A stretch of DNA of 64,000 nt from Capitulum mitella (lineage: Eukaryota; Arthropoda; Thecostraca; Pollicipedomorpha; Pollicipedidae): positions 3,642,304-3,706,303 of the forward strand of contig CP099847.1 in the NCBI GenBank assembly GCA_030062745.1. Direction: 5' to 3'. Below, piece by piece: positions 7,701 through 38,900 of this stretch. The notes below the pieces were generated by a model. It had not been told where the DNA came from. It saw only the letters and a program-made list of their open reading frames with translations, and did no database searches. Position 1 is the stretch's first letter. Every line of letters starts with the position of its first letter. The position numbers and the translations under genes are program-made.

Positions 7701-10700
7701 TCGATTGCCTTACGATCCTTCATCCTTAATCAGATTTTCACTGTCATTGCTGTCTCTCGGCAGCATATCTGTGTTTGTCTTCATCTTCAGCTGTCGCTGT
7801 GCCGTAGTGCCCCGGCCACGTTATAGCGCGTCACCCATCCCTTCGGCATCACCGATCCGAGTGACCTGGCGTCTGTCAGAATGACCGGCATAAAATGACG
7901 CGCGGTCTGCTTGTCTGCGGTAGTGGGCGGAGCCCAGCGCTGAACGAATGCCATTATGACTCCGCACTCTGTGTCCGGAGTGTGGTCACCAGGGCGATTT
8001 TTTCGACACTGAATGTATGTGGGAAGTACCCTTATTTGTATTTCGATTTTGGCATAGCCTTTTCCAGACAGGCGCTTAAGTTGAAATGGCAGTGCACGAA
8101 GTTTGGTGAGCGTGAGGCCGTAATCGTTGAAATAATCGCGAAAAATTAGGAGGCGAACGGTTTAGCACCGACGGTAGTACAGTGAGGCGCCAATCTTAAG
8201 ACGCAGAAGGTTTCTATGAATCGTCATTGTATTGCCATGAGTATGCTGCACTACTCCATGACCTGAACCACCGAACCCTTATAATGCTTGAATGTCAATT
8301 AAGTCTGGGCTACCGGTTGTCTGACCGGGGTAGGAGGGAGGTGAAGGGGTCACTTAAGTGAGGCTGTTCTAGATTCCGATGCCTTGCATGCCAGCCAACC
8401 CGTCGCTGGACGTAGGAAATTCCGAAAATTTTATCCAGACGCGATTCCTTCTGGAGCCTGAACCCAGCGACGCGGTAAATGTATGTCAGAACTTCTGACC
8501 TTTGAAATTCTAAACATTCAGAAATAATGAAACCTGCGTTTTAAGTTGTCGTAATCTTTGTCCTCTGTTACCGCTTCTGATTAACGGCAGAGCACTGGTC
8601 CTCGAGCAGACCAGGAATGGTCCAGCTGAAGAGTAGGACCAGTATTGGTCTGATTAAGGACCATTGTTGGTCCGGCTGAGGACCAGTGTTGGTCCTGCCG
8701 AGGACCAGTGTTGGTCCTGCCGAGGACCAGTGTTGGTCCAGCTGAGGACCATTGTTGGTCCGGCTGAGGACCATTGTTGGTCCGGCTGAGGGCCAGTGTT
8801 GGTCCTGTCGAGGACCAGTGTTGGTCCTGCCGAGGGGCGGTGTTGCCCTGGCTGTGGTCTAACGCCGTGCCGGGACTGCAGGCGCGGCACAGGCCGCAGC
8901 GGCTGGAGGACTCTGGCCTGCTGGAGCCGGTGGCGCTGCTGGACCGATCATTGGACCCGGACGGCCGGATCTTCAGCTCGCTGCTGGGGCCCATCCTGCG
9001 GCCCCGCTACGTCGGCTCGACAGCTCACGATGAAGTCAGACAGGTGCGTGCCCCCCCTCTCTCTCACACGCACTGTTTTCCTCTCTCCCGTCTCTCCCCC
9101 TCTCTCCTTCCTTCTCCCTTTCCCTCTTCTTGTCCCTCTCCCTCTGCCGCGCTGGACAACACAGCCGTCTGTCCGCCGCCGCCAGACGTGAGCTGGACCG
9201 GGGCCGTCCATCACGAAGTCAACCGTGTACGTGCCCCGGATGTGCTCGGGGCTCTGTATAGGGGCAGGACAAATCCACCGCTGTCAGGCAGCTGCACGCC
9301 GTGACTCTCGCGGCAGGTTAAACCAGACCTTATTACAGAACTCAGCAGAAAGCCCGTAAAGGAAGCAGTTAATCACAGAACTGCAAATTAATGCGACTTT
9401 GGCACGGAAATGCTGAGCAGTACATTTCCCACGTGCTCCGTAACCAGGGGCCGGTAACCAGGAGCACTGACGGATGCTACAGCCGGTAACCAAGAGCACT
9501 GACGCATGCTGCAGACGGTAATCAGAAGCAAATCATGCTATAGCCGGTAACCAGGGGCATCGAATCGTGCTGAAACTATGACTTGAAATCGAGCCATAGT
9601 CTTCCTGGCAGATACTTGGTGAAACAGGCTTCACCACGAGGCCGTTGGCTGCTGAGTCGGATTTAGTTAATGTTGTTTTGTGCGCTTATTTTATGTGTTT
9701 TATGCGTTTTTATGAGCTACCCACGAAAAAAGAAGCAGTGAAGGCGTTGGCATTGATAGACCATCTTTGGTTTGTTCAGTTTCGAACATTCGCATGTACC
9801 CTTATAGAAACAATTTTAATGGAGCACGACCGACGCATAGAGAACACCTCAATGAGTCCTCCGCGTGGAAAGGTCCCGACGGACTGCTGCTGCTTGGCAC
9901 GCGGCCAGACTGGGCCTTGGGCGTTCGTGTCGCACTGTACATGTGCGCCAGTCTGGCGGAATCGCAGTCTCGCCAGACTAGACTGCAGCAGGGTCTGGGT
10001 CCAAGCCCAGTCTAGACTGCGGCTGAGTCTGGATCCGATCCCATACGGGACTGGGACTGGGTCTGGATGCGATCCCAGACTGGACTGGAGCCGGCTCTGG
10101 ATCCGATATCAGATTGGATTGGAGCCAGGTCTGGATCCGATCCCAAACTGGATTGGAGCCAGGTCTGGATCCGACCCCAGACTGAACCGGAGCCTGGTCT
10201 GGAACCTGTCACAGACTGGGCTGGAGTCAGGTCTGGATCCGACCCCAGACTAAACTAAAGCCTGGTCTGGATCCGAGGCGGCCAGCTCGTCGCTCCGGGC
10301 GCGGATCGTTTTAGGAGCCAGCCGGAATGCCGAGTCTGCGCCACGTAATATCCGAGCTCTGGCGATCCGTCTAGAGACGTTACCGCTGCAGGGATGCTGT
10401 GTTATTTCCAATCCAGCCAGCGCAATCGCTCTTTATTTGACTTGTATTGTCTCCAAATTTGACCGGGATATTCATTGCGCCGCTGCTCTCGCCTGACGCA
10501 GATCTAAAGCAGTTTCACTATTTCGGATGCTCTGCTTTGGTATTTGCCCCACAATAACATGGTGTCGCCGTTTCGGTCTCTGATGCCAAACCAACGTGAT
10601 TGATTGTGTTGATGTTTTTAAAATTAGCCGGTGACGTGCTCCGGGTCCGACATGGATCAGCGCCTGACATGATACATGGGACATCGGAGGTCTCTCGGTG

Positions 10701-35986: not shown

Positions 35987-38900
35987 CTGCGGGTCACACA
36001 CCGCTGCATCACGAACCTGCGGATCACGCACCGCTGCATCACGAACTTCCAGATCGCATCCCACCGCATCACGAACTTGTACATCAGATTCTCCTCCGCA
36101 TCACGAGTCGGAGGACCGTCAACCATTACATCGCGAACCTCCGGAGCACACACCGCTGCATCACGAACATGCGGATCACATTCTACGGCATCACGAGCCA
36201 GAGTATCACCAGCCATTACACCACTAATCCGTGGATCGCACACCGCTGCATCACGATCCAGAGGTGCACCGCCGCATCATGAACCTGCAGATCACACTCC
36301 GCGGCATCACAATCCAGAGGTTCCCCGCCGCATCGTGAGCCTGAGGACTACACTCGCCGAGTCATGAATGGCAGTTAACCCACCGCTTCATCACAAAGTT
36401 GAGCATCAACCACCAATGCATCGTGGGCCCGAGAATCATCCACTGCTGCATCACAAAGCTGGATATGACCCACTGATGAACTGCGAACCTGTGGTTCACC
36501 CGCGACTCCATCAGGAACCTGACGATCATCAACCATTATATCATGAGCCTAAAGATCACACAACGCTCAATTACAGCCCTGAAAATCTTCCGTTGCTGCT
36601 TCGCAAACACAAGGGCCACACATACTGCCGCGATCACGACAGTCACCCGCTTCTGCATAACAGACATGGGATAACCCACCACACACTACATCACGTGCTA
36701 AGGGACCATCCCTTGCACACTGCATGGCGACCGTAGGGGTCGGCCAACCACCTCATCGGAAACTTAGCGTAACCTTAACGCGTATTTTGAACTGAGGTAG
36801 CAAAGGTAAAATCTGTAGTCTAAGAAGCCAATCTGGTATATGCTCTAGAGCAGCAGCGTAGCCAAGGGGTCCTAGGGGTCCCCGGACGCCCCGAAATTCT
36901 TCGAGGGGCCCCTGGCATTAGCCTAAAAAGGCCCCCTGGCCGGAAAAGACCAAATGCACTCCTCCGCAAAGGGCCCCTCAGACCCCAGGCAAAGACTCCT
37001 CCGGCAGATAGCGGGATACCCTCTGACCGGGAAAGATAAGGGGGCAGCCTGGCATGTACCTATTTAAAAGGCGAGTACCGGAAAGGGTGCTCCTCTTTAA
37101 CCCGCGCAGTGGAAGGGGGCAGCCTGGCATGTACCTATTTAAAAGGCGAGTACAGGAAAGGGTGCTCCTCTTGAACCCGCGCAGTGGAAGGGGGTTTCGC
37201 ACTAACGCGCACTGGAAGGGGGGCACAAAAGTGTCCCCTCCGATCTCGGAAACGAAAAGACCTAGAAACATTAAATTTTATGGACAGAGTGAGGCCATAA
37301 CGATCTGCATTGTGTGCTGGCATCTTTTCATGACCGTCGGCTGATATCTTTAAGGTCAAATGGGGCCGAAAATATCAATTTAAAACACTTCTCGGCCCGT
37401 GAAGGCCATTCCGTACGACTTTTCGAACGGAACGGGAAAAGGGTGTTTGTTTGAGCGCTAAAACGTGGAATACGACAATTGCCATTTACCTGGCGTCTTG
37501 ACTGGGGATTTCGAGCCGAAGTAATGTCAGGTCATTGACCTATAGCATCATTTTTTCATGTTTGCGGACCAGATTTCAAGCAACATGGGATATCTTAAGT
37601 GTAAATAAGGGCGCTGCACGCAACTTTTGGCGTATTTTCAGAGAAGGTAGCCAACATCGATACATTTGCTCACTTCCAGCGTTTATATTTATGTATGTAT
37701 GTACGTGTACATACGTAGATACATGTGAGTACCAATGTGTTAAACGTGCTTTTACATGTATATACATTTATGATACGTTTATATGTATATATAAGCGTAT
37801 CCACGTGCGCACACGTGTTTCTATGAGGGTCTTTGCAAGCATATTTCATACAAATCGACATGTTGCAAAGCAAACTTGGACCGGTCACAACATATTTGAC
37901 CTTTACCTCCGATGACCTTCACTTTCAATGACCCCGGTATATTTAAGCGCATCAGTGTGCGCACACGTGCTTTTATTGGGGTCCCTGAATGCATATTTCA
38001 TACAAACCGACATGTTGCAAAGCAAAGCTAGATCAGGTCACAAGCTGTTTGACCTTGACCTTTGATTACCTTGACCCGTACTGACCCTCGCTTTGGTCTT
38101 GGTACATCCCTCGTTTATGCCCGAATGACGTCGCGTGACTGAAGTTAAAACGGTAATCTGAGGTAGAATTTCACACGGTCACAGGGTCCCCACCTGTCAG
38201 GGACAACTGTTGATTTCGTTATGTTTGCTTGACTCCAAATGCTTGGAACCTGAAAAATGTCCGGCCGATTTTCGATTTTTCTGCGTCAATTGACAAGTTA
38301 TTCAGTTACCATAAATGTCACAAAGTAGCAAAGCACAAATATCTCGAGAACGGATCGGAGCAACCAGCTCCGATCCTTTCTCGAGATATTCAAAGAAAAC
38401 AGGTGGGGGGCACAAAAAGACCCCCTTCCAGTGCGCGTGTTAAAAGAGCCGCTAGCCAGGAAAGGTTCTCCTGCCATTGGACGGTGTCAGTTTGTCGAGA
38501 AGGGCCCGCCTGGTATCTGCCTTAAAGAATCCTCTGGCTGGGAAAAGCAATTCCATTCCACCATGCAAACGGCCCCCGGACCCCAGGCAAAGACCCCTGT
38601 GGCAGGTAGCGGGGTGCCCCCTCAACGATGTCCCTGGGGAAAGCAATTGGGCCTGGGCCCCGGCATATACCTGCCAAAAGGTATATGCGATAACAAGAAA
38701 GGATGCTCTGCAAAGGAGCCGCCAGCTAGCAAAGGTCCTCCTGCCATGGACGGTGTAGGTGTTTTGGCAATGGAGCCCCATTTGACGTAACGTAAGCCAA
38801 AGGACCTGGGGGTCTTATCTTCTCAACTCCAGAAATTTTTGGGAGAGAAAGGGAATCCCCTGGGCCAGGCTCCTGACATGTCCTAAAGGGCTCCAATGTC

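Follow-up and report, generated by a model that had tools for sequence, protein, structure and literature searches.

Mirage-type minisatellite arrays at splice junctions of two genes in the barnacle Capitulum mitella

In amphioxus, minisatellite-like duplications at exon-intron borders, termed "mirages", have been described in Adh3 and the globin genes BflGb6 and BflGb9 (PMC3087553) and in PGBD5 and TnC (PMC3902484). In the excerpts of these reports used here, the tandem units are tens to hundreds of bases long and hold either an intron end and the following exon start or the 3' border of an exon; many units keep splice signals, the interior of the array is homogenised, and the extra copies are intronic. 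We analyzed a stretch of 64,000 nucleotides from the barnacle Capitulum mitella (GCA_030062745.1, contig CP099847.1, positions 3,642,304 to 3,706,303 of the forward strand; hereafter the window), in which tandem arrays lie at splice junctions of two genes, QPCT (glutaminyl-peptide cyclotransferase) on the plus strand and an ionotropic-receptor-like channel gene (hereafter the receptor) on the minus strand. The original prediction, made from the letters of the window, held that a recurrent process duplicates intron-exon junctions in this genome, and knew of no named mechanism for it. The view that nothing similar has a name is not supported, since the excerpted amphioxus mirages are such structures.

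Two further systems are related. Human tandem repeats at exon-intron boundaries within segmental duplications, as far as the excerpted report goes, resemble the barnacle arrays in being minisatellites at such boundaries, with an average unit of 30 bp; unlike them, they were studied as variation among recent paralogues, and the repeats were often kept in transcripts or new introns were formed (PMC2812944). In the Rogers model, as cited in the excerpt of PMC3087553, introns are gained through duplication of AG/GT proto-splice sites. The common feature is a tandem duplication carrying splice signals, whereas the barnacle case makes no new intron and existing borders are copied into their own introns. 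Within the open-licence literature, we found no paper joining barnacles, minisatellites and introns, and none on splice-acceptor minisatellites of arthropods or crustaceans. Junction repeats were not mentioned in the excerpts of an earthworm paper, a Daphnia tandem-repeat paper and the Pollicipes genome paper.

Repeat units containing splice junctions

At three of the seven acceptors, those of QPCT exon 3, QPCT exon 4 and receptor exon 2, the repeat unit holds the 3' splice site and the first bases of the exon (Table 1), as had been predicted. Each junction (query from -20 to +15) was aligned to its local array and the score compared with those of 300 shuffles of the query. At QPCT exon 3, the junction scored 55 against a shuffle maximum of 23. 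Each 38-bp unit of this array consists of the intron end and about 20 exon bases, the overlap with the exon being 19 bp by Tandem Repeats Finder (TRF) and 22 bp by BLAST. A walk through the units found AG at the acceptor position in 20 of the 21 registers. The final register is the exon copy, ctctgtgttcggcag/CACATCGTCTCCGTGATGACCG (the stroke marks the junction), and a typical unit reads ctctgtgtccggcag/TACATCGTGTCCGTGATGAGCC; the 15 intron bases next to the exon agree with the neighboring unit at all but 1 position.

At receptor exon 2, the junction scored 40 (shuffle maximum, 24). The unit, CCGCAG/GTTCGTGATGC, is clear in the first copy and degenerate farther out, weaker similarity extends to about 36567, and AG is kept in 11 of the 27 registers walked. 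The duplication at QPCT exon 4 comprises two copies of about 527 bp that lie side by side, share 71% identity and reach 10 bp into the exon; TTCAG is retained in the upstream one. The case is weaker at the junction itself, where the score of 23 was reached by 0.3% of the shuffles (about one as high as 33), although the match taken as a whole is strong (E of 3.8e-70).

The prediction had placed arrays directly upstream of two further acceptors, those of QPCT exons 2 and 5. Arrays are present near both, but their units do not contain the junction: the junction and exon start matched them no better than shuffles did (54-70% reached the score), the acceptor junctions scoring 13 each (reached by 54% of shuffles at exon 2 and 67% at exon 5). 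By TRF, the array lies 46 bp from exon 2 and 56 bp from exon 5; in longer alignments it reaches to 24.5 bp from exon 2 and to about 17 bp from exon 5 (last aligned base, 29860). In the intron ahead of exon 5, the final 30 bases do resemble the array (a score reached by 0.3% of shuffles), and a BLAST match crossing this acceptor rests on the gappy tail of a 70% alignment.

Donors are copied as well. A copy of the QPCT exon 4 donor, 83.7% identical and including the last six exon bases, lies 75 bp downstream, and this junction scored 42 against a shuffle maximum of 25. The copy of the QPCT exon 2 donor is weak, its score being reached by 0.3% of shuffles with seven donors tested. Duplication of three of seven acceptors compared with one of seven donors gave a Fisher P of 0.56, and with two of seven donors a P of 1.0; specificity for acceptors is not supported, a donor being duplicated as well. 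In each of the four clear cases, the additional copies are found on the intron side.

The barnacle arrays are very probably the known mirage structure, now in an arthropod, a new phylum for it. As in the excerpted amphioxus cases, intron, splice site and exon occur together in the unit (at the acceptors of QPCT exons 3 and 4 and receptor exon 2 and at the exon 4 donor, although not at the acceptors of QPCT exons 2 and 5), both exon borders can be duplicated (three acceptors, one clear donor at exon 4 and one weak donor at exon 2), and splice signals are retained by many units, though not by every one (20/21 at QPCT exon 3, 11/27 at the receptor). Apart from the phylum, the barnacle case differs in having up to 21 copies at one acceptor. 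It is also a single sequence, whereas splicing, length differences between haplotypes and somatic instability are known in amphioxus, as far as those excerpts go.

Table 1. Exons, arrays and duplicated junctions in the window
Feature	Position	Strand	Basis
QPCT exons	1667-1753, 8882-9043, 13088-13271, 19896-19978, 29877-30047, 30523-30745, 31765-31923	+	Spliced open frame
QPCT exon 2, 22-bp array near acceptor (8882)	8635..8857	+	TRF, BLAST, shuffles
QPCT exon 2 donor region	9032..9054; weak copy 9215-9237, 183 bp downstream	+	Alignment, shuffles
34-bp array deep in QPCT intron 2, distant from acceptors	9973..10276	+	TRF
QPCT exon 3 acceptor array, 38-bp unit, 21 registers	12316..13109	+	TRF, BLAST, unit walk, shuffles
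QPCT exon 3; begins with the exon portion of the 38-bp unit	13088..13271	+	Gene model, homologue alignment
35-bp array deep in QPCT intron 3, distant from acceptors	16151..16446	+	TRF
QPCT exon 4 acceptor, two adjacent tandem copies of about 527 bp	18851..19905	+	BLAST, alignment, shuffles
QPCT exon 4, both borders duplicated	19896..19978	+	Gene model, BLAST, alignment
QPCT exon 4 donor and intron 4 start, duplicated once	19973..20096	+	BLAST, alignment, shuffles
QPCT exon 5, 35-bp array near acceptor (29877)	29460..29860	+	TRF, alignment, shuffles
Receptor exon 2 (ligand-gated channel domain)	34806..35986	-	Pfam match; frame break near 35938
Receptor exon 2 acceptor array, 30-bp unit, junction 35986/35987	35976..36355	-	TRF, BLAST, unit walk, shuffles
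Receptor exon 1 open frame	51988..53063; donor 51987/51988	-	Open reading frame, running up to 53063
33-bp coding array in receptor exon 1, unit length divisible by three	52745..52900	-	TRF, open frame

Unit origin and turnover

The units of different arrays are unrelated, as had been claimed. Among seven arrays, the numbers of shared 7- and 8-mers were near shuffle level in most of the 21 pairs, which led us to reject a common seed motif; the clearest exception was the receptor array compared with the array at 9973 (eight shared 8-mers versus 3.0 in shuffles). Because unrelated units at several junctions include the splice site and the exon start, junctions have been duplicated more than once. 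The two strongly duplicated exon starts, 13088-13109 and 35976-35986, both carry CGTGATG, and the QPCT exon 3 and receptor arrays share 13 7-mers versus 9.5 in shuffles. The common CGTGATG is probably due to chance; it could provide the unit that follows with a branch-point-like stretch. A common fold was likewise rejected: folding of two-unit DNA strands from four arrays gave an unusual result for just one (z of -4.1, versus 0.8, -0.1 and -0.9 for the other three), the 22-bp array near QPCT exon 2, whose unit at 8635-8835 is a near-perfect hairpin (GGACCA...TGGTCC).

In the QPCT exon 3 unit, the exon portion encodes residues conserved among barnacles (RQHIVSVM in Amphibalanus), indicating that the exon is the source and that copying went from exon to array. 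The exon starts themselves are sound, because in an alignment with 13 homologues the exon 2/3 border is gap-free in all 11 that cover it and borders 3/4 and 4/5 have no gap at the border itself among covering homologues; five non-barnacle homologues have one additional residue, 2 or 3 residues ahead of border 3/4. Intron gain by AG/GT duplication does not account for the arrays, since the copies lie in neighboring introns and the covering homologues align without gaps at these three borders themselves. A dispersed element as the source of the 527-bp and 75-bp duplications was also rejected, as no further copy was found in the window at an E value of 1e-3.

Within the QPCT exon 3 array, the exon copy departs from the interior consensus at six diagnostic columns, where 17 interior units agree with one another. 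The unit at 12361, last but one at the far end, carries the exon base at four of the six columns, the unit at 12442 at two and the unit at 12518 at one, and the others at none. This pattern is consistent with a start as junction copies followed by homogenisation of the interior. An exon-ward gradient, noted in the prediction for those arrays where one is visible, was not seen here and is not supported as a general feature: units 1-19 are identical to the exon copy at 29-32 of 38 positions, with no fall with distance, and the outermost unit at 21 of 38. There is accordingly no sign of continued seeding at this exon. In the receptor array, the first unit matches the exon copy at 25 of 30 positions and the remainder at 12-24.

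Placement of the arrays and competing explanations

Local duplicates found by BLAST within 1500 bases make up about 10% of the window, against none in three block shuffles. We kept the 15 TRF rows with a period of at least 15 and a score of at least 100, dropped those scoring <100, and merged overlaps by hand (16162 into 16151; 36234 and 36239 into 35976), which gave 12 arrays. A second set of 15 events added three of the ten BLAST tandem events that were absent from the TRF set (18851, 19973 and 37785); 26 non-adjacent BLAST pairs, many of them inside the same arrays, and a possible exon 1 acceptor near 1660 were left out. Arrays were placed at random anywhere, in the two genes, in the genes with arrays allowed to extend into exons by no more than one unit, or in the genes with matched GC content (10,000 placements each, 4,000 for GC-matched).

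In four of the 12 arrays, the end facing the exon lies no more than 60 bp from an acceptor (30 bp in two of them), with 0.15-0.36 expected (P of 1e-4 to 5e-4), and in two the terminal unit contains the acceptor, with 0.04-0.10 expected (P of 8e-4 to 5e-3). An acceptor was simply covered in two (P of 0.04, 0.05, 0.002 and 0.20 in the four placements), and the donor count was 0/12. In the 15-event set, five events are near an acceptor (P of at most 2.5e-4), three cover one (P of 0.009, 0.017, 0.0008 and 0.048) and three hold it in the terminal unit (P of 2e-4 to 5e-4), while the donor counts of 1, 1 and 1 show no excess over random placement (P of 0.12-0.60). The excess of array ends and terminal units at acceptors in this window is a real hint, not proof. 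The part of the prediction that concerned recurrent duplication of junctions was borne out in that several junctions have unrelated units and array ends lie near acceptors above random expectation, but its restriction to acceptors was not, as the copied donor shows.

The arrays are probably mirage-type minisatellites of ordinary birth and turnover, tolerated since their extra copies are intronic. A small tandem duplication would by chance take in an intron-exon border, and junction-containing units with exon-derived sequence are seen directly. The extra acceptor copy would fall upstream and the extra donor copy downstream, in an intron either way, and the protein would be unchanged provided that the exon-nearest site is spliced, so that the duplication should be tolerated, whereas a duplication within an exon would survive only as a multiple of three. 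From two copies onward, unequal exchange or slippage could expand the array and produce the homogenised interior that is observed, while the exon copy would stay fixed by coding constraint. The arrays found deep in introns, with similar unit lengths, and the in-frame array found in coding sequence would result from the same process.

Several points weigh against this explanation. Tolerance accounts for survival but not for the excess, and random placement, with exons as walls included, yields fewer acceptor hits than were observed (P of 1e-4 to 5e-3, counting nearby ends and terminal units). In addition, the outermost QPCT exon 3 unit (12323) lacks the exon base at all six diagnostic columns, so that the edge pattern comes mainly from one unit. 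A genome-wide excess, if it holds, would need either a bias of duplication toward exon ends or longer survival of exon-anchored arrays.

Such a bias, in which exon borders are copied far more often than other intron DNA, for example owing to transcription- or splicing-associated breaks or to repair that favors exons, is possible, if unlikely. It agrees with the numbers of near ends and terminal units above expectation in both sets, with the unrelatedness of the units and with the recurrence across several amphioxus genes in the excerpted reports (PMC3087553, PMC3902484). However, the tests came after the pattern had been noticed and drew on two genes with 14 junctions; in the 12 arrays, simple coverage of acceptors gives a weak signal, and donors show no excess. 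Moreover, 8 of the 12 strong arrays, with similar unit lengths, end at least 678 bp from any acceptor, and the array interiors resemble ordinary turnover. A broader reading, that barnacles share with amphioxus a mutational process copying both acceptor and donor junctions much more frequently than the rest of the intron DNA, is doubtful. Under it, many introns would contain degenerating copies of the exon ends that border them, and in some genes about 20 near-identical 3' splice sites would compete, with splicing confined to the one closest to the exon.

Chance alone, with some arrays of a minisatellite-rich genome happening to touch acceptors, appears improbable. The share of the window in local duplicates speaks for it, as does a measure of ungapped 24-base identity, by which 4.5-13% of window positions match their neighborhood as well as the four best junctions do and the QPCT exon 4 acceptor does not stand out. 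The random placements argue against it, as do the junction-containing units at three acceptors and one donor.

A role of the arrays in regulating splicing or making alternative products, as reserve 3' splice sites or as enhancers, is very improbable. The AG is kept in nearly all QPCT exon 3 registers, and in the receptor array use of the first AG upstream (36016) would lengthen the reading frame by ten codons without shifting it, so that an alternative receptor product is possible. However, all 19 upstream AGs of QPCT exon 3 would lead to a stop at codon 101, indicating that the intact enzyme needs the last AG; the receptor array keeps its AG in fewer than half of the registers, and amphioxus mirages leave regular splicing undisturbed, according to the excerpt of PMC3087553. 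The QPCT exon 3 array is a natural test of 3' splice-site choice: the surroundings of its twenty AGs are nearly alike, and by reading frame an intact enzyme would come from the last AG alone. An assembly artefact, in which alleles of a highly polymorphic barnacle were joined in tandem, merits next to no credence: very high allelic diversity has been reported in one barnacle, Balanus improvisus (about 20% at fourfold sites, in the excerpt of PMC8270832), and a frame break lies close to the receptor array, but many diverged copies of 22-75 bp units and an identity of 71% between the 527-bp copies are unlike joined alleles.

If mirages exist in an arthropod in addition to cephalochordates, they would be no quirk of one lineage, and exon borders as hot spots of duplication would become countable in barnacle assemblies. 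Amphioxus is highly polymorphic as well; a link between high polymorphism and mirages is speculation.

Gene models and other repeats

The seven QPCT exons splice to an open 355-residue protein, which matches Peptidase_M28 at 8.2e-30 in a Pfam search and is, over its full length, 76% identical to an Amphibalanus amphitrite protein and 64% identical to a Pollicipes pollicipes protein. The receptor gene model joins exon 1 and exon 2. Lig_chan-Glu_bd (Pfam) spans their join (residues 40-109 of the joined sequence, 70 profile positions, 9.8e-9), and Lig_chan (Pfam) matches exon 2 at 2e-8. No protein relative was found at E values of at most 0.001 or at most 0.01 among the 8000 candidates scored in each search, and the name of the receptor therefore rests on its domains. 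The frame of receptor exon 2 breaks at about 35938 on the minus strand, 48 bases into the exon, with the Pfam match continuing across the break, which is either an assembly slip or a sign of a broken gene. The coding minisatellite of exon 1 (52745-52900) is in frame and encodes repeated NVSDP-like residues.

The receptor intron holds three further features. An open frame at 48637-49341 (plus strand) resembles part of a DNA transposon, hAT-like as judged by eye; in Pfam it gave only a sub-threshold match to rve (0.044). At 45828-46978 lie two non-adjacent pairs of direct repeats of about 475 and about 390 bases, 86-90% identical, which are perhaps the ends of an element. A 75-bp duplication at 37038-37194, with about two copies that are 97% identical, is the youngest-looking tandem duplication of the window.

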